Shown: in pieces, positions 4,670 through 21,179 of the stretch
Layout of the letters: each line of letters starts with the position of its first letter
Position numbering within the stretch: position 1 is the stretch's first letter
IMG/VR virus record: IMGVR_UViG_3300027859_000090
Location: 1-21,628 of that record
Length of the DNA stretch: 21,628 nt
Direction: 5' to 3' (one strand)
Source of the DNA: a virus
The notes under the pieces: generated by a model
What the model saw: the letters and a program-made list of their open reading frames with translations, nothing else
Database searches by the model: none
Told to the model about the DNA's origin: nothing
Position numbers and translations under genes: made by a program

Positions 4670-5029
4670 TCACTTTTTTTTCACTTTTTTCCATATTTTA
4701 TGGAGGATAAAAAACCATAAGCCATTTATTGCAGGTTCCACTAATGCGACAGATCCAGCTTCCCATATACTAGCGCCTGTCATCCAATATACTACATTCA
4801 TTGCGATTATAATATGACCTAGAGTGTATATTACAGCAAGAACTAAGCTATCCATTTTTAATATCTGTCTGACAAATGGCTCTCTTACTTCTTTTTTCTT
4901 ATTCCACTCGGGATCTTGTCTTAGTTTCCATAACATCCAGTCATAGTATCTTTCAGGCTCAGGCCCGGGATCAGGCAACTCTACGTGTTGGCCAGTTCCT
5001 GTCATATCTTGTGTATGTTTATTCGACAT
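4670..5029 (-). CDS. DUF2061-like two-span membrane protein
   Basis: 119 aa. The ATG at 5027-5029 has GAGGAG 7 nt upstream and overlaps the ThyX stop by 11 nt. The N-terminal 50 residues are hydrophilic (LPDPGPEPERYYDWMLWK), followed by two hydrophobic segments at about 61-83 and 90-112. The pattern of TLGHIIIAMNVVYWMTGA then ALVEPAINGLWFFILHKIW resembles DUF2061 membrane proteins (two helices with a conserved E-P/xxxN and a final H-xxW). The product ends in KKVKKK; this lysine tail is encoded by the A-rich element directly upstream of promoter P2, so coding sequence and promoter overlap functionally. Function of the family is unknown. Confidence 0.65.
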   Translation of the reverse strand: MSNKHTQDMTGTGQHVELPDPGPEPERYYDWMLWKLRQDPEWNKKKEVREPFVRQILKMDSLVLAVIYTLGHIIIAMNVVYWMTGASIWEAGSVALVEPAINGLWFFILHKIWKKVKKK

Positions 5030-5696
5030 TTACGAACTCCTCTGCCATTGGGAATATTTTTGAGATAGCATCAGCACATGCAATTGCAACTTCACTGCAT
5101 TCTTTTTGTGTACCATTCGCAGATCTTAATTCAATAAAATGAATCCAGCTTCTTATAGTACCATTCATATATAACCTTGAAGTAGTCAGTCCTTCTGGTA
5201 AGACCGCCCTTGCGACTTCTTTTGCAATCCCTTTCTTGATAGCTGTCTCATAAACTTTTTTGCACATCCATATAACTCTTCCTTGTTCTCGTTCCCACTC
5301 AATTTGGAGAGCCCTATCATCAACTTCGATACTATTTTGTCTATTCTTTGTATCTTGCATTCTCGCTTCTCGTGTGACAAATTCTAACTCCTCTACTGGA
5401 TTGGCATATCTTTGGCTAAACTCTTGAAAACTAAAACTACGATGTCTCAGTATTTGTCGTGCAATATCTCTGGTAGTATTAATTTCAATGCAAGCACTTA
5501 CCATTTCAAATGGTGACCAGTGTTTATGTTTTGCAAGATATTTTAATAGTTTTTCTGATGTCTTAGTATTATTTTGATTTGATGGATTAGAGACTCTTGC
5601 ACAAAAAGCTACTAAATCTTGGCAGTCTTTTGGCATATCTTCTTCATATGTTGTAAATTCTGAAGGTTTACTATATGATATTAATTTTGCAATCAA
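5019..5696 (-). CDS. thyX: Flavin-dependent thymidylate synthase ThyX
   Basis: 225 aa. The start is TTG at 5694-5696, chosen because GGAGG lies 6 nt upstream and no ATG occurs before Met21; TTGA overlaps the previous stop by 4 nt. The ThyX signature RHRxxSxxExSxRY is present as RHRSFSFQEFSQRY at residues 84-97, with the RHR-x7-S pattern intact. The segment LPEGLTTSRLYMNGTIRSW followed by HFIELR is the typical C-terminal dUMP/FAD region. The enzyme methylates dUMP to dTMP using methylene-tetrahydrofolate, NADPH and FAD. Its presence means the gp42-like protein in this window is not needed for dTMP, which supports a dCMP role for the latter. Confidence 0.95.
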   Translation of the reverse strand: MIAKLISYSKPSEFTTYEEDMPKDCQDLVAFCARVSNPSNQNNTKTSEKLLKYLAKHKHWSPFEMVSACIEINTTRDIARQILRHRSFSFQEFSQRYANPVEELEFVTREARMQDTKNRQNSIEVDDRALQIEWEREQGRVIWMCKKVYETAIKKGIAKEVARAVLPEGLTTSRLYMNGTIRSWIHFIELRSANGTQKECSEVAIACADAISKIFPMAEEFVNVE

Positions 5697-7582: not shown

Positions 7583-7874
7583 CTTTTACCTCTCTTGTTA
7601 TAACTTCATTATCACGAATTCCTTGAGCCATGATTTGCTCAAGCATAATACCAGCGAACTCTTGTAATTTTTTATTTGAAACAACAAGTTCTGTATCTGG
7701 CGTGTATACAATATTAAAATTAAATGTCATATCTTTTTTCTTTCCATTAAATTTTACGACACCATATCTTAATACTGTTTCTGTAAATGTACCTGATAAG
7801 ATTCTAACGTTCCAAGCTTGGTCGTCTCCCTTATCAGGTATTATTTCATAGTGTTTATTTTCGACTAGGACCAT
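7539..7874 (-). CDS. Conserved hypothetical protein downstream of UvsX
   Basis: 111 aa. The ATG at 7872-7874 shares one base with the UvsX stop (TAATG). SD is weak (GGA about 9 nt upstream), consistent with coupling to uvsX. The sequence shows alternating beta strands (HYEIIPDKGDDQAWNVRILS, TFTETVLRYGVVKFN, DMTFNFNIVYTPDTELVV) and a helix near residues 65-85, ending in an acidic tail. Proteins of this type follow uvsX in several marine T4-like phages (from memory) but are uncharacterised. A recombination or helicase-loading accessory role is suggested by position only. Confidence 0.7.
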   Translation of the reverse strand: MVLVENKHYEIIPDKGDDQAWNVRILSGTFTETVLRYGVVKFNGKKKDMTFNFNIVYTPDTELVVSNKKLQEFAGIMLEQIMAQGIRDNEVITREVKDENDTESKTYTIDG

Positions 7875-8917
7875 TAGTGTTGATCCAACTTCGATAAGTT
7901 GACAACATTATTTAATATTGAATACTTATTAGTTACATACTGTTTAAAGTCAGTTTCTTCAAGTATTGGTTTCCAAAACTCTTCATTCAAGGTGTCTTTT
8001 TCTCGAACTTTCGGTTCCACCAATTCTCCAGTTGATTTGTCAATTCGTACGTACCAACCAGGGCTGGGCTTAGTAACATAATTGCCAGACATAGCAACAT
8101 CAAGAAGGCCAGACCAATGCTCAACACCACCGTCCCAACTAACAGAAATAGGAATTTTAGACTTTTCTTTAACATATCTTGATTTCTCCACGTTAATTAC
8201 GAAGTGGTAGCCTTTTATCTCAGTGCCAACTTTATCTTGCTGACGGCCAAGAATCCAAATATTATCAGCACTATAGTATATACCTGTGCCGCCTGATACC
8301 ACATCTTTAGGAAATAATCCAATCTCCTTATAAGTGTGGTTGACTGCAAGTAAAGGGATATCTTTCATATTTAGATATGGTGTTACCATTCTAAACAAAC
8401 CTTTAAGTGCCTTTGCTCTTGACATGTCAGCCACTGACTTCTCGTTGATTGCATCATCCAATTCTTTTTTAGAAGCTAAGTTGCCAACTGAATCTATAAT
8501 AATTACAACTTTATCACCGCGGTCCAAACCTTCAAGTTGGCTAATCATATCAAATTTTAACTCCTCTACATTTGTAATTGGAGTATGTAACACTCTACTA
8601 GTATCAATATCAAAGTTTTCAAAGTATGATTGAGGTGAACCGAACTCTGAATCATAAAACAATAATACAGCATCATCATATTTCTTTAAATATGCACTTG
8701 CCATTATTAAGGCAAATGAAGTCTTAAAGTGTTTAGATGGACCTGCAAGTACAGTAAGTCCCGGTGCTAAACCACCATCCATTGAGCCGGATAAAGCTAC
8801 ATTAATCATTGGTACGTCTGTAGGTACCATGTCTTTATCATTAAAAAATTTAGAATTTGATAAAACTGATGTGTAATCAACTTTAGTATTCTTTTTTAAT
8901 TTATCCATTATTGACAT
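7874..8917 (-). CDS. uvsX: UvsX, RecA-like recombinase
   Basis: 347 aa (T4 UvsX is 391). The ATG at 8915-8917 follows AGGAG by 7 nt. Walker A is GPSKHFKTS (59-67), the variant loop typical of UvsX rather than RecA GPESSGKT. The acidic helix LFYDSEFGSP (about 86-95) and Walker B KVVIIIDSVGNLASK (136-150) follow, then the KALKGLFRMVTPYLN and LLAVNHTYKEIG segments (L1/L2 region). It forms presynaptic filaments on ssDNA and drives strand invasion for recombination-dependent replication. The gene is followed immediately by two small genes and the helicase, as in T4. Confidence 0.95.
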   Translation of the reverse strand: MSIMDKLKKNTKVDYTSVLSNSKFFNDKDMVPTDVPMINVALSGSMDGGLAPGLTVLAGPSKHFKTSFALIMASAYLKKYDDAVLLFYDSEFGSPQSYFENFDIDTSRVLHTPITNVEELKFDMISQLEGLDRGDKVVIIIDSVGNLASKKELDDAINEKSVADMSRAKALKGLFRMVTPYLNMKDIPLLAVNHTYKEIGLFPKDVVSGGTGIYYSADNIWILGRQQDKVGTEIKGYHFVINVEKSRYVKEKSKIPISVSWDGGVEHWSGLLDVAMSGNYVTKPSPGWYVRIDKSTGELVEPKVREKDTLNEEFWKPILEETDFKQYVTNKYSILNNVVNLSKLDQH

Positions 8918-8926
8918 TCGCGTCTC

Positions 8927-9685
8927 CTAGTGTGGGATTGTTTGTTTTATAATATAATCGTTTACATCGACTGTAGGTGACCAACCTAATTTTTTCATCT
9001 CGGTAATATCGGCTGTATTGTTCGCTGCCTCACATGCATCACCGTCTTTAACGGGTAGAGTATAACCAGCAATTATTGCAAGATCTTCTACGGTGTTTCC
9101 TGTACCAGTACCTATATCATAGGCTTTCTCTAGTTGTCTAATGTTTTTACTCATTAAACATATAATAGCTTCAATTACATCTTTAACATGTATAAAGTCT
9201 CTTACATGACGAGTTACATATTCAACTTTGTGACTTAATAGTTTTGGAATAAACATGTTTTCACGAGCACCATCACCATATACTGTAGTAAACCTTAAAG
9301 CAACTTGATTTTCAAAGGCAGTTTCTTCGTTTACTTTCTTTGTAGTACCATACGGTGACAGCCACCAGTTATGTATACAAGAAGAAGATGCATATAATAA
9401 AGGTATGTTATTATAGTGACATATTTTCTGTATTCTGGTTGTATTTTCAACATTATTTTTCCAGTATTTTTGAGGATCTTCTATGCTCTGTCTTACATTT
9501 GCATAGGCTGCAAGATGTATTACATAATCAACATGATTTGGATCAAAGTCCTCAATACTTTTAGGAGGATCTTGTCTTAAGTCCCATTCGGTAACATCCA
9601 TTCCATCTTGAATTAACCTGTCTTTTAAGTGACTACCGATAAATCCGCGTGAGCCAGTGATGGCTACATTCTTTTTTCTTTCCAT
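8927..9685 (-). CDS. NAD-dependent epimerase/dehydratase (extended SDR)
   Basis: 252 aa. The ATG at 9683-9685 with GAGG 8 nt upstream is preferred to a longer frame to 9751 that would run across promoter P6. The Rossmann motif TGSRGFIGSH is at residues 10-19, the HLAAYANV block at 57-64, a Ser triad candidate at SSS 100-102, and YGTTK (Tyr112, Lys116) forms the catalytic YxxxK. It converts a nucleotide-sugar or related NDP substrate (epimerisation or dehydration); the exact substrate cannot be read. It is about 60-80 residues shorter than typical GalE/RmlB proteins, mostly at the C-terminal substrate domain. It may belong with the nucleotidyltransferase module on the other side of the methyltransferase. 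Confidence 0.85.
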   Translation of the reverse strand: MERKKNVAITGSRGFIGSHLKDRLIQDGMDVTEWDLRQDPPKSIEDFDPNHVDYVIHLAAYANVRQSIEDPQKYWKNNVENTTRIQKICHYNNIPLLYASSSCIHNWWLSPYGTTKKVNEETAFENQVALRFTTVYGDGARENMFIPKLLSHKVEYVTRHVRDFIHVKDVIEAIICLMSKNIRQLEKAYDIGTGTGNTVEDLAIIAGYTLPVKDGDACEAANNTADITEMKKLGWSPTVDVNDYIIKQTIPH

Positions 9686-9698
9686 TATATTTTCCTCG

Positions 9699-9738
9699 AT
9701 AATAGTATTATTATACCATAAATTGGTCCAATTGTAAA
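9699..9738 (-). promoter_or_regulatory. Promoter P6, internal, with inverted repeat at -10
   Basis: TTTACA (9733-9738), 17-nt spacer, TATAAT (9710-9715) on the minus strand. It overlies the last codons and stop of the methyltransferase gene and precedes the epimerase start by about 25 nt. An inverted repeat ATAATA-G-TATTAT (9699-9711) covers the -10 edge and start region. Flanking sequence is unlike P1-P5 (no GTTTACAAA, no A-run). Confidence 0.7.
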
Positions 9739-10913
9739 GGACTTTTCTCATAAAAATTTTCCTGTGACTTGTTATCTTGTACTAAGAAGTTAGTATCAAT
9801 TAATTGGTTATCCATGTAACCGCTGACATATCTTAATACATTGTCTGCCATATCACTTGCTGTAGTGACAGGAACATTTTGACATATATGATTTAAATTC
9901 TTTTTTCCTCCTTGAAGGACAAAGTCATCAGGTAATCCCATTATAGTAAGACACTCACGTATTGTGAGATATCTGTCTAAGTCAGGATGTGCTAGCTCAA
10001 ATGGAAGGTGGCCTACAAAAGCACCAATATAATCTTTAGGTATTGTTACAAGTCTACGCATTACGTTATTACCTGCTTCAAGCTTATTATGAATCATCAT
10101 TGCTTTCGCAGCTTCTTTATCAAATCCATTCTTTAATAACCACTTAGACACTTCAGAGTATTTAACATTATTGTTTTCAATATAATCCATAGGATTCACT
10201 GTCCTAGTAATTGAGTTTTGAAACTCACAGTGTGACATGCCTCCACACATCTCTTTAAGAACATACTGATAAAATGGATTATGTGAAGGAATCTTCTCAT
10301 TAGTTAAAACTGACATCGCGTCGTCTGGAGAATTTTTCGCAGACCGTATCGTATCTTCTATTTTTTGGTGTTTTCTCTTATAGTAATCAAGCTTAGGTAC
10401 CTTATCACCTTTCCAAAAGAAATAAAAAGATCGATCACGCACTTGGCTTAGTCCATGGAAGATAGATTTCGTTTTATAAAGCGAGAAAGTATATCCATAC
10501 TTTCTTCCAATTTCCCTGAGATTTTCAACGACCGGCTCTCCCATTTTTGAAGCGAGTCTTGGTGCGTTTTCGCCCCAGAATACTCGAGGTTTGACAGTAC
10601 CCAAGACGTAATTAGCAGAGGTAGACATCCAATCGTTAGCAGCAGCATCAGAAGATGCTGAAGTATTGAGACTAGACAAGCCAGCACAAGGACACACGGT
10701 ATTAACAACATCGACAGAATGTACATTGTGTTGCCCACCGTCATCCAAAACATAGTACGGTACTTCATTTTTATAGTATTCGACCAAGTGATTATCATTT
10801 GCTTTAAATGGTTCATAGCTTAAAATATACTCCGGTTTCTTTTGAAAAACATTTTGCATAGCGATTGTTTCGCCGCCTATGAGAGGCACTATACTTGCAT
10901 ATGTATGATTCAT
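9711..10913 (-). CDS. DNA cytosine-C5 methyltransferase-like protein
   Basis: 400 aa. The ATG at 10911-10913 shares one base with the previous stop and has GAGGA 9 nt upstream. C5-MTase motifs occur in order: a divergent motif I (IVPLIGGETIAMQNVF), motif IV with catalytic Cys in CPCAGLSS (about 75), motif VI as WGENAP (about 113-118), motif VIII as QVRDRSF (about 156), and a motif IX/X-like end (TIRECLTIMGLPDDF, then CQNVPVTTASDMADNV). The target-recognition region is about residues 170-320. It should transfer methyl from SAM to cytosine C5, unless repurposed. Motif I lacks the usual FxGxGG. Its coexistence with a dCMP hydroxymethylase in one operon is odd (see findings). Confidence 0.85.
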   Translation of the reverse strand: MNHTYASIVPLIGGETIAMQNVFQKKPEYILSYEPFKANDNHLVEYYKNEVPYYVLDDGGQHNVHSVDVVNTVCPCAGLSSLNTSASSDAAANDWMSTSANYVLGTVKPRVFWGENAPRLASKMGEPVVENLREIGRKYGYTFSLYKTKSIFHGLSQVRDRSFYFFWKGDKVPKLDYYKRKHQKIEDTIRSAKNSPDDAMSVLTNEKIPSHNPFYQYVLKEMCGGMSHCEFQNSITRTVNPMDYIENNNVKYSEVSKWLLKNGFDKEAAKAMMIHNKLEAGNNVMRRLVTIPKDYIGAFVGHLPFELAHPDLDRYLTIRECLTIMGLPDDFVLQGGKKNLNHICQNVPVTTASDMADNVLRYVSGYMDNQLIDTNFLVQDNKSQENFYEKSPLQLDQFMV

Positions 10914-12013
10914 TATTGTAAGTCCTCAACTTTCCAACCTTTATCTACTATTACATTTACTGCTTTAGCTCGAGGAAGACACGTGGTGCTTAACACATCA
11001 TTTACGACTACTCTACAACCTTGTGATACGCCTAATATTAATTGGTCATAGGGTATAAGATTGTCATCAAGTAATTTTTCAGTAAATACTCTAGCACCTT
11101 CTTTTCTTGCTGACACTAATATGATCTTATCACCTCTAGAGTCAAGTTCGTCAAGTGCTTCTTTAATACCCGGCAATAATTCTGCAGAATTTTTAAGATT
11201 AGAGTACCTGTGCGCGTGCTTAAATATTGTTCCATCCAAGTCAATGAAATAAGTATTTGGTTTTTTAGTATAATATTCTGAAATCATACCTTTAAATAAG
11301 GCAAGATCTTCTGGTGTACCAGTTGACCAGTACTTACCCACACTATCATATGTTTCAGATATGTGTGATATACCTATATTGGAACCTTCTTCAATAAGGT
11401 AATTATAAGTTTCAGATATATAAGTTTCATTCTTCTTGTTAAAATTTCTAAGTGACTTTGTACCTGAACTTACAAAATCTTGAGCTCTTTTCCAGTAGTG
11501 CACTCCAACTAAGGCTTCACCTTCGATGGCACCTTTTGGCTTTTCAATCATTTTAACTACTTTGTTATTTATTACTTTCGCAAAAGAGTTCTTAAGGTTT
11601 TCTGAATCATACGTAAGAACACAGCCGTCATAGCTTCTGCTATTTGCGAGAAATGTTTCAGCATCCCAGTCAAGATATTGATCACAGTTAGTAATAATAA
11701 GCTCACCATTATAGTCATCATTCATTCCAGCTAGAGCAGTTTCAGCTGCACCAGTCGTAACATGATCAATAACTTCAAGCTCATAACTAGAGTCAGAGTT
11801 ATCAAAATACTGATCGAGTTCTATCTTAAGGTCAGACATATATGTTCCACCTAAATCTCTACAAACAAAAATATAGTCACCTACAATATTGAGAGACTCA
11901 ACTGCATATCTAATTAGACTCTTATTATTAACTTGTATCAAGGGTTTGTGTATAGTATATCCAGCATTTGTAAATCTGGACCCTAAACCTGCCATTGGTA
12001 TAATCACTCTCAT
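10913..12013 (-). CDS. Nucleotidyltransferase-HAD phosphatase fusion
   Basis: 366 aa, two domains. Residues 1-245 form an NTP-transferase (GT-A fold): IPMAGLGSRFTNAGYTIHKP (residues 5-24; G-G-S-R loop and Lys23), TNCDQYLDWD near 108-117 (metal-binding Asp), and VKMIEKPK (153-160). Residues 252-366 form a HAD-like domain: YFIDLDGTIF with the nucleophile pair Asp258/Asp260, IILVSARKEG (Ser301) and VVVNDV (Asp339). It could activate a phosphorylated sugar or polyol with CTP/UTP, with the phosphatase trimming a partner intermediate, as in capsule gene clusters. The ATG (12011-12013) forms an ATGA overlap with the GDPD-like gene, with AAGGA 9 nt upstream. Substrate unknown. Confidence 0.85.
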   Translation of the reverse strand: MRVIIPMAGLGSRFTNAGYTIHKPLIQVNNKSLIRYAVESLNIVGDYIFVCRDLGGTYMSDLKIELDQYFDNSDSSYELEVIDHVTTGAAETALAGMNDDYNGELIITNCDQYLDWDAETFLANSRSYDGCVLTYDSENLKNSFAKVINNKVVKMIEKPKGAIEGEALVGVHYWKRAQDFVSSGTKSLRNFNKKNETYISETYNYLIEEGSNIGISHISETYDSVGKYWSTGTPEDLALFKGMISEYYTKKPNTYFIDLDGTIFKHAHRYSNLKNSAELLPGIKEALDELDSRGDKIILVSARKEGARVFTEKLLDDNLIPYDQLILGVSQGCRVVVNDVLSTTCLPRAKAVNVIVDKGWKVEDLQ

Positions 12014-12447
12014 TTGTACATATCCTTATATTTTATTGCATAATCTGTGCAGATTCCTAAAGCACCTTTAGGAACTATATCACCGTATCTTTCTGGTAGT
12101 ACTATATATGAGCCACTAAAACCTTTGCCGGGAAGTGCCCAAAGCTCACCTTTCGATGTCATTACCACATCTTCATCTGTGTGATAAAACACTCTTTTTC
12201 CACTTTTATTTAAGTACACTAATGAATTAGTGTCTTTTGCATGAAACCAAACACGTTTATCATCATATAGCCAAGTAGGACACACTACCGTTGAATCGTC
12301 ATGTCCTATTAAAAGTTCACCTTTAATGAGTCTTACATCAACTTCAACGTCAAATCCATGAGATAGCGCCTCATCGAGAGTATCAAGTTGATTTTCAGCT
12401 TCCGGATCAGGTCCTACCATAAGACCTCTATGAGCTATAATCTTCAT
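12010..12447 (-). CDS. Short GDPD/PI-PLC-like phosphodiesterase
   Basis: 145 aa. The ATG at 12445-12447 overlaps the cupin stop as ATGA. Catalytic elements of the glycerophosphodiester phosphodiesterase family are at the N-terminus: IIAHRG (His6-Arg7), FDVEVDVR (Glu35, Asp37) and IGHDD (His49). Later blocks VWFHAKD and VFYHTDEDVVMTSKGELW, then ALPGKG and YIVLPE match short PI-PLC-like proteins I recall from bacterial capsule and LPS clusters. It is only about 60% the length of a full TIM-barrel GDPD, but ends cleanly and matches that short subfamily, so it is probably not truncated. It presumably acts on a phosphodiester made with the neighbouring nucleotidyltransferase. Function unproven. 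Confidence 0.75.
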   Translation of the reverse strand: MKIIAHRGLMVGPDPEAENQLDTLDEALSHGFDVEVDVRLIKGELLIGHDDSTVVCPTWLYDDKRVWFHAKDTNSLVYLNKSGKRVFYHTDEDVVMTSKGELWALPGKGFSGSYIVLPERYGDIVPKGALGICTDYAIKYKDMYK

Positions 12448-12791
12448 CTTTCCACCACATACTTATCGCCTATAACACTAGGTGCCTTAATGCAGACGAT
12501 TGAACAGTCATCAACAAAGTTTGCGTCGACGACAAAGTCAGGATATATTACAAATAAGTCACCTTTCTTATAAGTAACGCCGTCAATTTCCACAGCGCCG
12601 TCTGTAATATAATTATATTCAGTTGCGATTTTGTGATAATGTTTATCCCATATCTCACCTTTAGGATGAGTTCTCACTGATATTTCAAAGTCTTTTGTCT
12701 TAAATAACGTAGGTTCAAAATCACCAATGAACCAACCTTTAGTAAAGTCTTTTATATCAAACTTTTCAATTGTGCCACGCTTACTTTCCAT
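12444..12791 (-). CDS. Cupin-domain protein
   Basis: 115 aa. The ATG at 12789-12791 lies at the end of the preceding gene (11-nt overlap). The double-stranded beta-helix signature is visible: DKHYHKIATEYNYITDG (His51, His53, Glu58 as metal ligands) and later VEIDGVTYKKGDLFVIYPDF. It is a single small cupin of the kind found next to nucleotidyltransferase and PI-PLC-like genes in surface-polysaccharide clusters. It could be an isomerase/epimerase acting on a sugar intermediate or a metal-dependent enzyme; the sequence does not decide. Overlapping stops and starts link it to the next two genes. Confidence 0.8.
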   Translation of the reverse strand: MESKRGTIEKFDIKDFTKGWFIGDFEPTLFKTKDFEISVRTHPKGEIWDKHYHKIATEYNYITDGAVEIDGVTYKKGDLFVIYPDFVVDANFVDDCSIVCIKAPSVIGDKYVVER

Positions 12792-14004
12792 TTAATACCT
12801 CCTCAGCATTTTTCATTATAATATCATTCATATACTTACCACTTTTTTTGTCAGGTGTTATCATATCTTTTAGTTGTTTATGTAGTCTATTATACAACAC
12901 TTCATCACCATTGTAAAGGTTTATTTTTTCTAATAAGTCGTTTGAATCTTTCACTCTTAATTCTTCAGGAAAGCCAATATTTTTTTGCTCATCATATGTT
13001 GGATGCATAAACGGTATGATGCCATGTTTTATCATTTCCCAAAACTTACCCGTTGCCCAGCCGGGAGCGATAGGAATACAGAAAGTATACTTAGTTCTTG
13101 GAAACTGCCATGATAGTTCAGACATCGCAACCTGTTCAATTCTAGGATCCTTTAAAGCTTTTTCATTCCATACTCCATAAACTTGTACATCTTCAACGCT
13201 GTCAAGTATAAAGTTTTTTAAGTCATTATATCTTGATGGCTTACCTTCGTTTAGCCACAATACCATATTAATATCACGCACATGTTCAGGCTCATCAAAG
13301 AAAGCATCAAGTCCGGCAGGCTCTTCCTCTTCAACAACATATAATGTTTCAATACCTGAATATACTGCAGGAACCTTATCAACAATCATCTCATTAGATT
13401 CATAAGAAACTCTGTGCTCAACTTCGACAGTCTCATTAATCAGCTGTAATATTCTCTTTGGTGGAATCAGTATATCTTTAGCTGGTTTAGGATAACATCT
13501 TGGATCAAGTGATAGTACCATATATGGAATTTTCGTCTCATTAATAAAATGATGTATTGGGCCGGCATATTTCGCAGCTGCCATCAATGTCTTAATTGGC
13601 TTACCATCCTTTAAGGTCTTACCTTGTACTGCATATTCAAGTACTCCACCTGCAATAAAGATACCAATATCAAACTTTTCTTCAGTCTTAATAACATGTT
13701 CCATGTATCTCCATGATTCTGTTACCTCATCTTTATCATCTTGGTTATCAAACCAGTCTTTAAACTTAGCCCATACGTCAATCACGTTACCATGTGGATC
13801 AACTTTCTTTCTTACCTCAGGTTTAAGCCTTGAAAAGTTTGACCTACCTATAAGATAGAAAGTATCTTCTGGATTAAACTTAATAAGAGTTTGAAATATA
13901 ATTCTTGCATCAATTGACCCTGCGGTCATAGCCTTCTTACCAGTACCCTTTTCTTCTGGTCCAAACTTTATTGACTTACCTATTTTACCTAGTGCTATTC
14001 TCAT
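12781..14004 (-). CDS. GT-B glycosyltransferase, T4 beta-glucosyltransferase-like (candidate DNA glucosyltransferase)
   Basis: 407 aa (T4 beta-GT is 351). By eye the N-terminus MRIALGKIGKSIKF parallels MKIAIINMGNNVINF of beta-GT. NEGKPSRYNDLKNFILDS (252-269), then EDVQVYGVWNEKALKDPR (271-288), parallels the beta-GT stretch carrying the UDP-binding Arg191/Arg195 and NIEFFGNAREKQFKNPK. GKFWEMIKHGIIPFMHPTYD (319-338) parallels LRVWETMASDAVMLIDEEFD, with Glu323 at the place of UDP-ribose-binding Glu272. The C-terminal helix (NDLLEKINLYNGDEVLYNRL) also matches. This suggests a UDP-sugar transferase acting on hydroxymethylcytosine DNA, in keeping with the dCMP hydroxymethylase in the operon. The similarity is remote and recalled from memory. 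Confidence 0.55.
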   Translation of the reverse strand: MRIALGKIGKSIKFGPEEKGTGKKAMTAGSIDARIIFQTLIKFNPEDTFYLIGRSNFSRLKPEVRKKVDPHGNVIDVWAKFKDWFDNQDDKDEVTESWRYMEHVIKTEEKFDIGIFIAGGVLEYAVQGKTLKDGKPIKTLMAAAKYAGPIHHFINETKIPYMVLSLDPRCYPKPAKDILIPPKRILQLINETVEVEHRVSYESNEMIVDKVPAVYSGIETLYVVEEEEPAGLDAFFDEPEHVRDINMVLWLNEGKPSRYNDLKNFILDSVEDVQVYGVWNEKALKDPRIEQVAMSELSWQFPRTKYTFCIPIAPGWATGKFWEMIKHGIIPFMHPTYDEQKNIGFPEELRVKDSNDLLEKINLYNGDEVLYNRLHKQLKDMITPDKKSGKYMNDIIMKNAEEVLNGK

Positions 14005-14383
14005 AATATTCTTTACACTCCTTTAATACTTGAGTAACGTATTTTTTATCATTTAGTTTACGGTTAAGGCCTGATGGATGTGGTAACTTAAAGTGATCCA
14101 CATTAATCTTTGCTAGTGCTTCAGATGCAACATTACCTAAAGCAATAACTTTTTCGTAACCTTTACTAATAGTATATAGCCTGTCATAATCTATATCTTT
14201 TTTAGTAAAGGTACCTGGGTGAGGATAGGTGTTAGAAAATGAAAAAAAATTAACACCTATCCAATCCATCCACTCATACATTTTACCAATAGTGCTTCCA
14301 CTACGAATACCTTCATCTTTTTTTCGAAAGTCTTGACCCGGTCCGGGGTTTTGTGCAATAACTAATACTTTATCCAATCCCAT
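13985..14383 (-). CDS. Uracil-DNA-glycosylase-fold protein
   Basis: 132 aa, shorter than usual UDGs (about 200). The ATG at 14381-14383 has AGG about 7 nt upstream and overlaps the deaminase by 22 nt. Residues 7-16 (LVIAQNPGPG) match motif I of the UDG superfamily (GxNP), SFSNTYPHPG (48-57) fits the following loop, ALGNVASEAL (81-90) the LGxxA block, and LPHPSGLNRKL (100-110) the HPS motif II. It lies between the dCMP deaminase and the glucosyltransferase-like gene, suggesting work on a modified or deaminated base, or on a nucleotide. Related small phage proteins are poorly characterised, so base excision activity is not assured. Confidence 0.75.
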   Translation of the reverse strand: MGLDKVLVIAQNPGPGQDFRKKDEGIRSGSTIGKMYEWMDWIGVNFFSFSNTYPHPGTFTKKDIDYDRLYTISKGYEKVIALGNVASEALAKINVDHFKLPHPSGLNRKLNDKKYVTQVLKECKEYYENSTR

Positions 14384-14802
14384 ACTACACCTGCTTCTTT
14401 AAACATTGATATTGAACTTGATATTGACTCTTGCCAGTTTTCTGGTATCTCTTGTTCTGGCGTTACAACTCTGCTTATGCCAGCTTGGATTAAACCTTTT
14501 GCACAATCATGGCATATTGGTAAGCCTATTACGTAGATTGTAGAGCCTTTTAATGATACACCATTTTCAGCTGCATTATAAATCGCATTCATTTCTGCAT
14601 GAACTATACGTTTATACTTTATGGCTTTATTTAAATAATATAATTCATGATCGTCTACACCTCTAGGAAAACCATTATAACCTTGAGCTATCACTGTACG
14701 ATTTCTAACAGCAACTGAGCCAACCTGTGTTGAGGGGTCTTTTGACCACGAGGCTACAAGCTTTGCCATTTCTAAAAATCTTTTATCCCATTTATTTGAC
14801 AA
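14362..14802 (-). CDS. cd: dCMP deaminase
   Basis: 146 aa counted from TTG 14800-14802, giving MSNKWDKRFLEMAK, the usual start of this family; AAAGG lies 10 nt before it. An ATG at 14818-14820 would add 6 residues but has no SD. Zinc site: HAEMNA (His68, Glu70 as proton shuttle) and PICHDC (Cys97, Cys100). The substrate loop is QGYNGFPRGVDD (40-51). It converts dCMP to dUMP, feeding ThyX, and competes with the gp42-like enzyme for dCMP. It is shorter than T4 Cd (193 aa), so the allosteric insert may be reduced. Its start overlaps the gp42-like stop by 11 nt. Confidence 0.93.
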   Translation of the reverse strand: MSNKWDKRFLEMAKLVASWSKDPSTQVGSVAVRNRTVIAQGYNGFPRGVDDHELYYLNKAIKYKRIVHAEMNAIYNAAENGVSLKGSTIYVIGLPICHDCAKGLIQAGISRVVTPEQEIPENWQESISSSISMFKEAGVVWDWIKY

Positions 14803-15469
14803 GATCAAAGTGCCTTTCATAAACATGCAAGTTTTGTACTTGCCACATGATATCACCAAGAGTTATTTCATTATCGTCTTCACTCTTACACTCGTTATAA
14901 TCTTTAACTAAGTCTTCTAGAACATAAAGCTGCCAAGCATAGTCATTTTTATATCCGAACACGACATCGTTAGAGCGCATTTGTACGACACAGTGTAGTT
15001 TATCATCACGTATGTAATAAGTAACGGCATTAGTACATATGAAATCGCTTTTACCATTTTCATTATATTCCTCCCATATACTTGGACGGTTGTAAATCAT
15101 TGAGGCTCTACGGCCATCAGGATTTACTAAGAGCTCATCAAGAACTCTACCGTATTGATGGTAATACTTATCAGAATAGATAATTTGACCATAATTAGAA
15201 TTAATTTCACCATAGTCATTTGCTGCATACTGCCAAGCTTCAGGTACTTTGCCACCGATAGCATTTACGTTAGTGATTTGACTCTTATACCATTGCAATT
15301 CTTTATCAATATAAGTTTGACTAGGTGTACCAAATATTGCAGGTTCATCAGCAATAAATGAAGCACCAATCCATTCAATAGTTTTTTGTCCGGTCTTATC
15401 GATAGTAAATACTTCATTAAGAAGTTTGGATTTAAATAAACCTCTTACGTCTTCAATCTTATTAATCAT
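14792..15469 (-). CDS. 42: dCMP hydroxymethylase (T4 gp42-like)
   Basis: 225 aa (T4 gp42 is 246). The ATG at 15467-15469 has AAGG 5 nt upstream. Long stretches match T4 gp42 from memory: DKTGQKTIEWIGASFIADEP (24-43), GEINSNYG (87-94), RRASMIYNRPS (120-130), SDFICTNAVTYYIRD (141-155) and RSNDVVFGYKNDYAWQ (165-180). Cys145 corresponds to catalytic Cys148, and Asp176 to Asp179, the residue that replaces the dUMP-binding Asn of thymidylate synthase and selects dCMP; both have the same 3-residue offset. It makes 5-hydroxymethyl-dCMP from dCMP and methylene-tetrahydrofolate. It ends just after LHVYERHFDLVK, about 20 residues short of the T4 C-terminus. Confidence 0.93.
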   Translation of the reverse strand: MINKIEDVRGLFKSKLLNEVFTIDKTGQKTIEWIGASFIADEPAIFGTPSQTYIDKELQWYKSQITNVNAIGGKVPEAWQYAANDYGEINSNYGQIIYSDKYYHQYGRVLDELLVNPDGRRASMIYNRPSIWEEYNENGKSDFICTNAVTYYIRDDKLHCVVQMRSNDVVFGYKNDYAWQLYVLEDLVKDYNECKSEDDNEITLGDIMWQVQNLHVYERHFDLVK

Positions 15470-15758
15470 CTTGACCTTCCATCTTTCCACGCATATATGA
15501 TACTGCAAAAGAGCAATAGTTAATCATATCTTTGTAAGTATCTTCGAGTGATTCAAACTTTGGATCACCTTCAGCTTCAAGTAAAGACTGTGCACGTAAT
15601 AGTTTTTGATGTATCATATCATGAATAGTATCAACACCTCTACGATAGTGCATAGCCTGCTTTATATTTGAGTTAGGATTTTGATAGTCTTGTGACTTTT
15701 TTAGTTGTAACTCAATACATTCATTAAGAACGTTTACTGACTCTTTAGACTCTGACAA
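15462..15758 (-). CDS. DUF1599 / Nmad1-like protein
   Basis: 98 aa. The start is set at TTG 15756-15758: GGAG is 6 nt upstream of it but directly abuts the in-frame ATG at 15762-15764. The family pattern is a helical domain with a KKSQDYQNPNSNIKQAMHYR block, RGVDTIHDMIHQKLLRAQSL and FESLEDTYKDMINYCSFAVS. These parallel DUF1599 (nucleotide modification associated domain 1: KxxDYG, then IxxKxxRxxxL, then ExxxDxINY). The family co-occurs with base-modification genes and phage thymidylate synthase relatives, and here it immediately precedes gp42. It may channel or regulate nucleotide precursors; mechanism unknown. Confidence 0.6.
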   Translation of the reverse strand: MSESKESVNVLNECIELQLKKSQDYQNPNSNIKQAMHYRRGVDTIHDMIHQKLLRAQSLLEAEGDPKFESLEDTYKDMINYCSFAVSYMRGKMEGQDD

Positions 15759-15960
15759 TTTCATCTCCATACACAAAGTGCCTGTTGTCAAGATCAATGA
15801 TGCAGTGATCAATTAACTTTTCATGCATCTTATCAACATCAATTCCACACTTGGAACTATGTCTTGGTTCAGGCATAATCTCAATCTTCTTGATTTTATT
15901 AAAGCCATACTTTGTTTCAACCGTATCACCTACATAAAATATATTATCAAACTTAACCAT
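15745..15960 (-). CDS. Small hypothetical protein
   Basis: 71 aa. The ATG at 15958-15960 shares a base with the previous stop (TAATG) and has AGGGG 5 nt upstream. The sequence looks like a small beta-barrel: NIFYVGDTVETKYGFNKIKK, then VDKMHEKLIDHCIIDLDNRH, FVYGDEIVRV. A charged VGD...VxTKYG start followed by strand-rich sequence is seen in SH3-like or KOW-like folds, but that is only impression. Its end overlaps the DUF1599-like gene by 14 nt. No function assigned. Confidence 0.65.
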   Translation of the reverse strand: MVKFDNIFYVGDTVETKYGFNKIKKIEIMPEPRHSSKCGIDVDKMHEKLIDHCIIDLDNRHFVYGDEIVRV

Positions 15961-17392: not shown

Positions 17393-18299
17393 ACTCGAGA
17401 GCACGGTTAGCCTCCTTTTCCATTGGACGGTTCTTATACCAATTACCAGTTTCTGTGTCAAGTTCACGACATAACACAGTAATTTCGTCAGGCGTAATTG
17501 GATATTTGTTTTTTACGGCATTGCCTGCAGTTGCCACCATAATCTGATACATCTTATGATACCAACCAGTTTTGGTAATCATTCGATATTCTTTTTCAAG
17601 TTGTTTAGGAAAGAAAGGACAGTTAGCATAAGATGACCAATTTACATTAGTATTATCAAGTTTTGCTTTTCTGTGTTCGAGTATTTCTTTTTGCATATCT
17701 TCGGGTAAGCTATCAAAAAAGTTATTACTAGATTTCTCACGATATGGGTATTTGTTCATTAAGACATCAGGATCAATATAATGCCCAGCACCACTAAAAA
17801 TAAAATTATACGCATCACTATATGCTGCTGGTATATAATACATCCTAGAAAGGTCTTTGGTTTGCTTATCTCCCATATCTCCGAGCTCTGTTTGGAGAGA
17901 AAACCAAAAGTGTCGAATTTTTTCAGCCGCGACTGTTTTGGTAAGCGGGAAGACAAGACGAAATTTAGGTAAAGAATGTGTACTACTAGCAGTGCTATAG
18001 CACACAAACCTAATACCATTAAACTTATTATTAATGGCGTCATAAAAGTCTCCTTCATATTTAAAATCATCAACATCAACTGCACACCAACCAGCCCACA
18101 TTGTGACATTATCATTAGCACGCGTGGTATCAGGTTTGTACTGAGCTGGCGACATGAGTGGCGCGTCTTTCTTTGATTTTATAGTACGCTTTGATAATCC
18201 ATACAATGCGTGTTCAAAACTATTAAAATCAGTAAACGTTAATTTTTGCTTAGTCTTATTATCAAATATACTATTAAAAAGAGTCAGTGATATTTCCAT
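17373..18299 (-). CDS. AEP (prim-pol)-like primase candidate
   Basis: 308 aa. The ATG at 18297-18299 follows AAGGG by 5 nt and overlaps the MazG-like gene by 26 nt. Residues 69-79 (AGWCAVDVDDF) have the hDhD pattern of archaeo-eukaryotic primases, FVCYSTASSTHSLPKFRLVF (98-117) the strand plus SxH and KxR region, and LSRMYYIPAAYSDAY (150-164) the late Ser-Arg block. A C-terminal helical region (GWYHKMYQIMVATAGNAVKN, then ITPDEITVLCRELD) resembles PriCT-like tails. It may make primers or act as a replication initiator-like protein. A DnaG-type gp61 is not present in the window, so this protein could replace or add to it. The assignment rests on motif spacing, not on close similarity. Confidence 0.55.
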   Translation of the reverse strand: MEISLTLFNSIFDNKTKQKLTFTDFNSFEHALYGLSKRTIKSKKDAPLMSPAQYKPDTTRANDNVTMWAGWCAVDVDDFKYEGDFYDAINNKFNGIRFVCYSTASSTHSLPKFRLVFPLTKTVAAEKIRHFWFSLQTELGDMGDKQTKDLSRMYYIPAAYSDAYNFIFSGAGHYIDPDVLMNKYPYREKSSNNFFDSLPEDMQKEILEHRKAKLDNTNVNWSSYANCPFFPKQLEKEYRMITKTGWYHKMYQIMVATAGNAVKNKYPITPDEITVLCRELDTETGNWYKNRPMEKEANRALEYVYKNI

Positions 18300-18696
18300 G
18301 ATTACCCTTATGATCTGGACCTTCCCAACCTTCTGGCTTTACCAAGTCTGGCAATCCAAGTGGATTAGGACGTCCTTCTTTTATTCCAACTTCTTTTGAC
18401 ATGTTGGCTCTATATACTTCATCCCATGCTTTATTAGCATCAACGCCAAATACTTCAAGCGTACCGATTGCAAAAACACATAAGTCAATAATACCATCAA
18501 CCATTTCTTCTGCATCTTTTTTCTCAAAAGCATTCTTTGTTTCATCAAGTTCTTCTTGCATCATACCAATTCTAAATTGCATGAACTTATTAATTTTTCT
18601 CCAATCTACATCAGACTGCAGCTCAGCCTGCATCCATTTGTTGACTCCATATTTTTTATGCATATCTTGCATGTCTTTAAACCAGTTTGTACTCAT
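18274..18696 (-). CDS. MazG-like NTP pyrophosphohydrolase
   Basis: 140 aa. The ATG at 18694-18696 overlaps the polymerase stop as ATGA, with GGAGGA 9 nt upstream. The all-alpha NTP-PPase metal site is visible: MMQEELDETKNAF (Glu48, Glu49, Glu52) and AEEMVDGIIDL (Glu64, Asp67, Asp71). The tail WDEVYRANMSKEVGIKEGRP followed by LPDLVKPEGWEGPDH is the usual substrate-binding end of phage MazG-like proteins. It cleaves a (d)NTP to (d)NMP and pyrophosphate. Given the dCMP hydroxymethylase in the window, a role like T4 gp56 dCTPase/dUTPase (same superfamily fold) is plausible: it would remove dCTP and supply dCMP. The substrate is inferred from context. Confidence 0.85.
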   Translation of the reverse strand: MSTNWFKDMQDMHKKYGVNKWMQAELQSDVDWRKINKFMQFRIGMMQEELDETKNAFEKKDAEEMVDGIIDLCVFAIGTLEVFGVDANKAWDEVYRANMSKEVGIKEGRPNPLGLPDLVKPEGWEGPDHKGNHGNITDSF

Positions 18697-21179
18697 ACGA
18701 AAAAATCCTCCAGTGTTGCTTGTTCTTCGGCCGACCAGCCGATAGACTCTAATATTAGGTTAAGTGGTTCTATAAATGTTTTTTCAAATTGTAAGTCATA
18801 ATCGACGTACTTATGTAGATTTAATTCTTTAGGTAATACGTCAGGAAATGCTATGACATTTTCTTTTATCGAGTTCGGTAACTTTAAGTAACAGAACTTA
18901 ATTCTATCTCCATTCGTAATTAATTCATACTTATCATTTAACTTGTTAAACTTAACATGCCTATTAAATAATAATGAACCTCTTACGTGTATTGGACAAC
19001 TCTTTTTATATATTCGCTTATGGTCGTACCAATCAGTTATGTTTGAAACTCTACGTGGAAAGGCAACCTGTTCAGGCGATAGTGACTTAAACTCATTCTT
19101 AAAGTTTCTTATAAATGTTTGTGTTTCTTCTTGTGTGCCAGATATTATTAAGTTAAATGCTTCACGGAACTTTCCTCTTACAACTTCAGGTGTTGATGAC
19201 TTAATAGCTTCAATACCCATAATCTTAAGCTTAGGTTCTTTATACTGAACACCTTCATTATTATGTACATTTAAAATATATCTTTTCTTTGCAGTCCATA
19301 TGCCACTATCAGATATACCTTCCCTTGCCATGACCATTCTATTCTTATGTGCATTCATGTTATCAAATAATTTTGAGTATGCTTTTTCCAAGACAGGCTC
19401 AAAGTGTTCCTTGCATATCTTATCAAGAAATGATACAGGATTTGTAGGACTTAACTTATCAACTAATGGACCAAAGTTAACGTACAGTGAATCCGTATCG
19501 ATTGCAATAACATAATCCTTTTCAGTTTTAAGTATGCCATTCATTGCAGCATTCATTGCCTTTTCAGCCCACTGAATTGCAAGCTGGCCAGATAATGTTA
19601 CACCTTCGGCTAATCTTACATCAAAGTGAGCAAAGTGTTTATTACCTAAAGCACCATACAAACTATTAAGTAGGATCTTAATAGCCATCTGACGATTTTC
19701 CATCGTGTTTATTTCTTTGTCCAACTCAAAGCTATAACCTTTTTGTATTTCTTTTTGTGCTGCAATTTGCATCTTTTTAACTGATACACGCTCATCATAA
19801 TATTCTTCAATAATTTGTGGTAGTACACCATCAAAGTCTTTACGATATGATGAACCATTTGCGGCAACAGAATATGTGCTACTAACTGACTTACCGCTTA
19901 GGTAATACGCAACGTCATTCATTTGTGTGTCTTCAACTAGAGTTTCTGGTGACATATTATATTGTACAATTAAGTTAGGATATAACGAATTCAAATCAAA
20001 AGAAACAACCCAGTTATGCCGGCCAACCTGAGGAGACTTTACATAACCACCTTCAAAGGGTCGATATGGTTTTTCTGTCATGTCGATAGGTACAACCTTC
20101 TTAATTAAGTTTAACCTACGATAAATAATTGATTCCCATATTGCTGTAACACCAAAAGTATCTTGATAGTTTACACCACCTTTATACGCCATAGTAAGAG
20201 CCAGAGTAATAAGGCCCATCTTTTCTTCCATTCTATCGACAAGCTCAACATCTTTCATATTATAGTCAATATATTTTTGATGATCATCTTTGTATAAGTT
20301 TTTAAGTGAGCCTGATTCTTCATATGATAACTTCTTTTCACCAAGAACTACGTTTGCTATATGATTAAGCGCATAAGATTCTTGTGGACCATAACTATAA
20401 CCAAACTTTTGAAATAACTCCATGTAATCAAGAGTTTGTATACCTGGGATTTCATACACGTCATTTTCACTACCACGTCTTACAACCTTACGATGTTCTA
20501 GTGGAAGTTCCCATGGAGAAAACTTACTTAGCACAGTAATACCTAACACCTTCGCTGTACGATTAATAATATAAGGTATATCGAAAAATCTTGTATTCCA
20601 ACCAGTAATAACATCAGGTATTACTTCAGGGTGTGACCAAAATTCTAAGAACTTAGTAAGTAGTTCTTCCTCACTATTACACCTAACATATTTAACATCA
20701 CTAATAAGAGCTTTACTTGTATCAAATTCACCATAACCCCAAACATTATATGTGGAGAACTTACTTGACTTATATGTTATGGCGAGTATTTGCTGACTTG
20801 CTTCATTGGCGTGAGGAAATCCATTGTCATAATCTGTTTCAATATCAAACGTACCAACATTAATATCTTCTCTTTTAAACTCAATATCACGTGGAAACTT
20901 TTCAGTAATATATTGTTGCACAAATTTTTTGTTACCGTATATGTGCCTACCACTAACGCCTGCATTTTGCTTAAGCCACTGATTTGCTTCGAACATACTA
21001 GGAAAGTCTACAGCTGATACATCACTACCATCAAAGCCTTTCCAATCACTTTTCATCTTACTTGAAACAAAGAGTCTTGGCTCGAAAAAATCTTTACGCA
21101 TAACTCGTTTACCGTGATTGTCATAACCACGGTAAAGAATATTATTTTTATATCTTATGACATTAGTGTAAAATGACAT
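18693..21179 (-). CDS. 43: DNA polymerase, family B (gp43)
   Basis: 828 aa (T4 gp43 is 898). Exonuclease motifs: Exo I GTFDIETDYDNG with Asp112/Glu114 (same numbers as T4), Exo II GWNTRFFDIPYI (Asp200), Exo III YNMKDVELVDRM (Asp310). Polymerase motifs: A SFDLNSLYPN (393-402), B KILLNSLYGALGNK (501-514), C IDTDSLYVNF (560-569). All catalytic residues are present. The C-terminus EEQATLEDFFV resembles the clamp-binding tail of T4 gp43 (SLDFLF-type). It performs leading- and lagging-strand synthesis with proofreading. The start ATG (21177-21179) has a poor SD (GGA about 10 nt upstream) and follows the previous stop directly, so it is probably translationally coupled. Confidence 0.97.
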   Translation of the reverse strand: MSFYTNVIRYKNNILYRGYDNHGKRVMRKDFFEPRLFVSSKMKSDWKGFDGSDVSAVDFPSMFEANQWLKQNAGVSGRHIYGNKKFVQQYITEKFPRDIEFKREDINVGTFDIETDYDNGFPHANEASQQILAITYKSSKFSTYNVWGYGEFDTSKALISDVKYVRCNSEEELLTKFLEFWSHPEVIPDVITGWNTRFFDIPYIINRTAKVLGITVLSKFSPWELPLEHRKVVRRGSENDVYEIPGIQTLDYMELFQKFGYSYGPQESYALNHIANVVLGEKKLSYEESGSLKNLYKDDHQKYIDYNMKDVELVDRMEEKMGLITLALTMAYKGGVNYQDTFGVTAIWESIIYRRLNLIKKVVPIDMTEKPYRPFEGGYVKSPQVGRHNWVVSFDLNSLYPNLIVQYNMSPETLVEDTQMNDVAYYLSGKSVSSTYSVAANGSSYRKDFDGVLPQIIEEYYDERVSVKKMQIAAQKEIQKGYSFELDKEINTMENRQMAIKILLNSLYGALGNKHFAHFDVRLAEGVTLSGQLAIQWAEKAMNAAMNGILKTEKDYVIAIDTDSLYVNFGPLVDKLSPTNPVSFLDKICKEHFEPVLEKAYSKLFDNMNAHKNRMVMAREGISDSGIWTAKKRYILNVHNNEGVQYKEPKLKIMGIEAIKSSTPEVVRGKFREAFNLIISGTQEETQTFIRNFKNEFKSLSPEQVAFPRRVSNITDWYDHKRIYKKSCPIHVRGSLLFNRHVKFNKLNDKYELITNGDRIKFCYLKLPNSIKENVIAFPDVLPKELNLHKYVDYDLQFEKTFIEPLNLILESIGWSAEEQATLEDFFV

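Follow-up and report, generated by a model that had tools for sequence, protein, structure and literature searches.

The DNA analyzed in this study, hereafter the window, comprises the whole of an IMG/VR record (21,628 bases) and represents a fragment of a larger phage. At positions 14792 to 15469, on the minus strand, the window encodes a protein of 225 amino acids that resembles gp42, the dCMP hydroxymethylase of phage T4; the reading frame begins with an ATG at 15469 and consists of 225 codons and a stop. The original prediction of a gp42-like protein at this location, which did not mention the strand, is confirmed: in a phmmer search of PDB the best match is T4 dCMP hydroxymethylase (1b49, E=9e-72, residues 5-224 aligned), whereas ThyA chains reach merely ~1e-7 to 1e-5. 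When the protein is aligned with T4 gp42 and ThyA, its FICTN falls on FMCTN of T4 and its GYKNDYAWQ on GFRNDYAWQ. Cys145 thus corresponds to Cys148 and Asp176 to Asp179, with the offset of three that had been predicted, and an Asp rather than an Asn stands at the place of ThyA Asn177. The canonical phage ThyA in the alignment has Asn at that place (FLGLPFNIASY), as does the T4 mutant chain 6l18 found in the same PDB search, in direct contrast to the window.

At least 551 stretches in IMG/VR encode a relative of this protein. Among 81 marine sequences, namely the best 80 of these relatives and the window itself, Cys145 and Asp176 are unchanged in all, and Glu57 (T4 Glu60) and Asp168 (T4 Asp171) are likewise invariant. 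No cultured relative reaches 60% identity: Citrobacter phage Moon comes closest with 56%, and gp42 of T4-type phages is 54-55% identical; RB32 provided the gp42 reference, gene 42 of T4 strain GT7 being unannotated and reading to an early stop. The C-terminus ends 21 residues short of the T4 gp42 end. The proteins of the marine relatives have a comparable length (about 224-237 aa), and the short C-terminus is therefore considered a clade feature; truncation by a frameshift was ruled out because the short end is common to the clade, and nothing that would continue the T4 tail was seen in the other frames. Judged by its sequence, the gene is a true relative of T4 gp42 (PDB 1b49, 1b5e) and groups with it; taken alone, it is a further member of a known gene kind. 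The UvsX of the window and its counterpart in phage C48C1, a member of Kyanoviridae by classification, share 75% identity.

The genes around gp42 all lie on the minus strand. Upstream, the order is DNA polymerase gp43 (18693-21179, identified by sequence and synteny), a MazG/PRA-PH NTP pyrophosphatase (18274-18696, Pfam E=2e-9), several small genes, and Nmad1 (15462-15812; DUF1599, "nucleotide modification associated domain 1", Pfam E=5e-7). Downstream, a dCMP deaminase (14362-14859, Pfam E=4e-22) overlaps the 3′ end of gp42 and follows it directly, which differs from the T4 gp42 locus. Next are a small protein of 132 aa resembling the UDG superfamily (13985-14383, Pfam UDG E=9e-4, below the curated cut-off) and a putative GT-B glycosyltransferase (12781-14004). 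The sugar cassette continues with a cupin-like small protein (12444-12791, PHROG 24762) and a GDPD-like protein (12010-12447, PHROG 34507), both named by eye, the latter from its N-terminal AHRG, and both with no Pfam match. These are followed by a fusion of a nucleotidyltransferase and a HAD phosphatase (10913-12013; weak Pfam matches to NTP_transf_3 and HAD, phrog_3980 and phrog_415), which from its domains probably serves NDP-sugar synthesis. A Dcm-like C5-cytosine methyltransferase homologue (9711-10913, Pfam DNA_methylase E=7e-16), a nucleotide-sugar epimerase (8927-9751; Pfam Epimerase E=6e-28, phrog_540 E=1e-52), UvsX (7874-8917), gp41 and ThyX (5019-5696) complete the series. The separate ThyX of the original prediction is real (Pfam Thy1 E=6e-42).

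The arrangement gp43-gp42-glucosyltransferase-uvsX-gp41 is shared with T4; gp43 marks one border of this T4-like order, and UvsX closes what we call the modification slot. Across the 80 best of the at least 551 gp42 loci, the dCMP deaminase is near gp42 in 79, Nmad1 is present in 73 (within 3 kb in 65), and the UDG-like protein stands beside the deaminase in 51, while a search of cultured phages for the UDG-like protein gave no match. Serratia phage Muldoon also has Nmad1 directly upstream of gp42, and its slot contains genes annotated as alpha- and beta-glucosyltransferase.

The putative glycosyltransferase of the window (407 aa, read from 14004 to 12781) matches no Pfam family at E<=0.01. 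Its AlphaFold model, built from a 24-sequence alignment, has a pLDDT of 85.5 and a pTM of 0.86. In a Foldseek search of this model against 350,542 PDB chains, ranks 1-6 are all T4 beta-glucosyltransferase, or BGT (best E=9.7e-9), which outranks all other GT-B enzymes. The fold match has an identity of 11-12% and a TM score of ~0.55 by query length; hhalign aligns the C-terminal half only (E=7.8e-6) and places Glu323 on Glu272 of BGT. The homologue in Pseudoalteromonas phage XG4 (PP712099) matches Glyco_trans_1_2 weakly. T4 BGT (1c3j) is both the best fold match and the occupant of the same genomic slot, although the window enzyme, unlike BGT, travels with its own sugar-nucleotide genes. The original prediction pointed to DNA with 5-hydroxymethylcytosine (hmC). 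Hydroxymethylation is supported; however, since the beta-gt slot contains a BGT-like enzyme, the final base in the window phage is probably glycosylated hmC, a likely product as far as the predicted fold and gene order indicate.

The contents of the slot vary among relatives. In a survey of 51 loci where a single contig carries both gp42 and UvsX, we found an AGT-type cassette in 17, a GT376 protein with UDP-galactopyranose mutase in 11, a PALP-like/318/338 set in nine, the BGT-like cassette in six, and an inositol-phosphate synthase with HMUDK_hel in five; three loci were unclassified. A candidate glycosyltransferase is present between gp42 and uvsX, with the BGT fold in the window and of the AGT type in relatives. 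The AGT-type proteins of 426 and 415 aa belong to the T4 alpha-glucosyltransferase family (Pfam AGT, E=6e-33 and 1e-27) and fill the slot in relatives with a gp42 84-88% identical to the window protein; in the window, the BGT-like gene stands in the place of AGT. Two loci, L003 with AGT and L004 with the BGT-like gene, both have a gp42 88% identical to the window protein, and yet their cassettes differ; the cassettes have therefore been exchanged. The cassettes vary in content, whereas the constant step appears to be hydroxymethylation.

Several of these cassettes deserve separate description. In L015 (7201-9338), a glycosyltransferase-like protein of unknown family stands in the slot with a UDP-galactopyranose mutase (GLF, E=1e-49), a combination that suggests galactofuranosyl-hmC DNA; the same type occurs in L013, L016, L017, L020, L021, L028-L030, L034 and L044. 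In L043 (3169-7246), an inositol-phosphate-synthase-like protein, HMUDK_hel (the helical domain of 5-hmdU DNA kinase) and an unknown protein of 345 aa adjoin gp42, an unusual hypermodification set of the non-glycosyltransferase kind that is also present in L018, L025, L051 and L056. In L071 (9948-13642), the set consists of a PALP-like protein, unknown proteins of 318 and 338 aa and a UDP-glucose dehydrogenase; this type, also found in L052, L059, L060, L064, L068 and L076, is the sole one that lacks the Dcm-like gene.

A profile search with the glycosyltransferase, made without gp42, yielded 70 further loci, nearly all with a protein at most 40% identical to that of the window. The Dcm-like protein is encoded downstream of the glycosyltransferase in 67 of the 70 and a thymidylate synthase (TS) homologue upstream in 43, with both the Cys and the Asp in all 43. 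Where at least 6 kb is available on each side of the glycosyltransferase, 18 of 21 loci have both the Dcm-like gene and an Asp-type gp42, and the exceptions (L281, L299 and L300) are divergent matches at 31% identity. Because many contigs are nearly identical and hence not independent samples, these locus counts measure consistency and not probability. Among cultured phages, XG4 carries within 6.5 kb gp42 (with Asp), HAD, nucleotidyltransferase, glycosyltransferase, a second glycosyltransferase-like gene and the Dcm-like gene. Phage C48C1, which is close by UvsX, has no annotated gp42 in the corresponding region and was not matched in the Dcm-like search of cultured phages. In Enterococcus phage 9183 (L084:6776-11209), an Asp-type TS adjoins the same glycosyltransferase family and a nucleotidyltransferase, a gene set predicting modified cytosine; among the papers listed in our literature search, none dealt with the DNA chemistry of this phage.

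The Dcm-like protein accompanies the AGT, GLF, BGT-like and inositol-phosphate-synthase (MIPS) cassettes in 39 of 39 loci and the PALP-type cassettes in none of nine. Its model has a pLDDT of 90.5, and the top Foldseek matches are M.HhaI and DNMT1-type enzymes, with which it has in common the fold and motifs IV (Cys), VI (EN) and VIII (QxRxR). In 44 sequences the corresponding catalytic residues, Cys76, Glu115, Asn116, Gln157, Arg159 and Arg161, are invariant. Motifs I, II, III and X differ from those of M.HhaI and the DNMT1 type, and the genes sit in hmC-type clusters. Compared with six canonical enzymes (E. coli Dcm and five phage methyltransferases), motif I, canonically DLFxGxGG, is rewritten in the relatives and ends in PL[IV]GG, the Glu of motif II is replaced by Tyr or Trp (SY/SW), the Asp of motif III is not conserved, and GNSV of motif X reads QNVP. 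The canonical SAM-binding motif I (FxGxG) and the motif II Glu are absent from the Dcm-like sequences compared; the Pfam DNA_methylase match starts at profile position 30, and the best PDB profile matches also begin after motif I. From these alignments, the active site appears to have been kept and the cofactor site changed.

The observed homology, catalytic residues, gene order, fold match and co-occurrence have, very probably, a joint explanation: an orthologue of T4 gene 42 makes hm-dCMP, and the genome most likely carries glycosylated hmC. That hm-dCMP is the product, as originally predicted, agrees with the identity of the protein, its active site, the synteny with T4 and the neighboring genes. 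We infer the enzyme activities, the sugar and the extent of substitution as follows. gp42 would convert dCMP to 5-hydroxymethyl-dCMP with methylene-THF, by homology, as the one-carbon donor, and ThyX would make dTMP separately from dUMP supplied by the dCMP deaminase. The MazG-type pyrophosphatase, a candidate dCTPase and gp56 analogue, would probably remove dCTP, which would favor incorporation of hm-dCTP. The nucleotidyltransferase/HAD protein and the epimerase would make the sugar, and after replication the BGT-like enzyme would move it onto the hydroxymethyl group, so that the genome would come to carry glycosylated hmC and would be protected from restriction and CRISPR nucleases.

The supply of nucleotides bears on the first alternative, in which either hm-dCMP is made at a low level or 5-methyl-dCMP is made, and the DNA contains mostly normal cytosine, some of it methylated by the C5-methyltransferase homologue. 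The conservation of that homologue beside gp42 would suit such a scheme. Moreover, T4 gp56 was not found in the long marine relatives and, among the records searched, occurs only in XG4 and Muldoon; T4 gp1 as a single-sequence query gave no match in the marine genomes, and a search with the gp1-type dNMP kinase family gave a strong match in two of nine long marine relatives (both bearing the glycosyltransferase) and in Muldoon. With gp56 not detected and gp1 matched in two of nine, the route to hm-dCTP is either incomplete or runs through host or other enzymes. However, the pyrophosphatase, which adjoins gp43 in the window, is present in all nine long marine relatives, and its MazG/PRA-PH group is the superfamily of the T4 dCTPase gp56; this speaks for the originally suggested genome-wide modification. 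The catalytic residues match a hydroxymethylase, glycosyltransferases of the same slot include the T4-type AGT, and the methyltransferase homologue has rewritten SAM motifs in the relatives compared. We therefore regard this alternative as very improbable.

According to the original prediction, the Asn-to-Asp change shifts the substrate of the family from dUMP to dCMP and so points to hydroxymethylation. The first part stands and the second does not follow from the residue as such, because RB69-type TS homologues, ~25-31% identical to the window gp42, also have Asp; the Asp predicts a dCMP substrate and leaves the product unfixed. In the MetaGPA study of coastal and sewage viromes, TS homologues mostly have Asp177 on cytosine-modified contigs and mostly Asn on unmodified ones, and the Asp177 genes co-occur with dCMP deaminase and PRA-PH (PMC8670742). 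Because of this split, Asp is a good marker of phages with modified cytosine. Like the window, the MetaGPA contigs belong to environmental phages and combine an Asp-type TS with dCMP deaminase and PRA-PH; there, a carbamoyltransferase carries out the second step, carbamoylation (PMC8670742), whereas glycosylation is predicted for the window.

A second alternative is the chemistry of RB69-type phages, in which the TS homologue uses dCMP and the final base is 5-hydroxycytosine with a pentose on the oxygen and no hydroxymethyl carbon. In the T4-like Shewanella phage Thanatos, whose cluster resembles that of RB69, a pentose is O-linked directly to cytosine without a hydroxymethyl group (PMC12838424), and clusters of this type have an Asp-type TS homologue, a nucleotidyltransferase and a HAD protein in the same slot as the window. 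However, they also include genes for Peptidase_U32 and arabinose-5-phosphate isomerase, their TS is degenerate, and no BGT-like or Dcm-like gene was seen in them. In the RB69-type TS, Asn replaces the conserved Asp of S-x-D and the Gly after it is missing, whereas the window protein keeps both and is far closer to gp42 of T4-type phages (54-56%). Moreover, neither the window nor any of the marine loci fetched yielded a U32 homologue. Because of the T4-type residues and the lack of a U32 gene, hmC is the better prediction, and RB69-type chemistry in the window phage is very improbable. In two RB69-type clusters (L302:6532-7692 and L303:6008-7174) the U32 gene lies near the degenerate TS homologue. 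The U32 family includes RNA cytosine/uridine hydroxylases that act at C5 of pyrimidines; by analogy, the hydroxyl for which the Thanatos authors had no explanation could come from the product of this gene.

The remaining alternative, an ordinary thymidylate synthase beside sugar genes that modify surface polysaccharide, agrees with the library names and with the frequency of sugar genes in phages, but it has almost no probability left: ThyA identity is effectively refuted by the alignment of Asp176 and by ThyA matches that fall tens of orders of magnitude behind gp42, a ThyX is already present, and the glycosyltransferase folds best onto a DNA-modifying enzyme and is found only with Asp-type TS. 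The warning that such a gene is easily misannotated was right, since PHROGs and many GenBank records name the family thymidylate synthase. In cyanophage S-TIM5 (L083:8775-9611), position 177 of the "ThyA" is Asp instead of Asn, and by this residue the protein is probably misannotated; a Dcm-like gene is also present.

Genomes of the hmC type are known mainly from T-even enterobacterial phages. Because whole cassettes, for sugars or other hypermodifications, are swapped in the slot and gp42 is retained, the DNA of marine phages probably contains several kinds of modified cytosine yet undescribed. What is new here is the swappable cassette with a BGT-like enzyme, together with a near-constant C5-methyltransferase homologue altered at its cofactor site. 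We found no description in the open-access literature of a C5-methyltransferase partner of dCMP hydroxymethylase or of a pelagiphage hydroxymethylase, which is weak evidence of novelty. A C5-methyltransferase makes little sense where every cytosine is already 5-substituted. One hypothesis is that the protein has a SAM site of altered sequence. The role that we infer with more daring, and consider rather doubtful, is that it is not a SAM methyltransferase: it might flip out hmC or glycosyl-hmC, attack C6 with its Cys and carry out a SAM-independent reaction at the 5-CH2 group (exchange, removal or transfer). To our knowledge, SAM-independent chemistry of C5-methyltransferases on hmC is known only in vitro. 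If the proposal is true, this reaction would be a natural use of that chemistry, and the Dcm-like protein would be a general third component of cytosine hypermodification in marine phages. This near-constant partner, whose catalytic site is intact and whose cofactor motifs are rewritten, offers a concrete target in the search for new DNA chemistry, and XG4, a cultured phage with gp42, the glycosyltransferase and the Dcm-like gene, makes the question open to direct test.

Two minor features of the window lie on the minus strand beyond ThyX. The ORF at 2056-2625 weakly matches the pyrimidine dimer DNA glycosylase of the T4 type (E=2e-4, narrowly short of the cut-off), and the ORF at 382-717 encodes a small membrane-protein-like product in which an EF-hand-like motif (DKDGDGIVTDEE) was recognized by eye.
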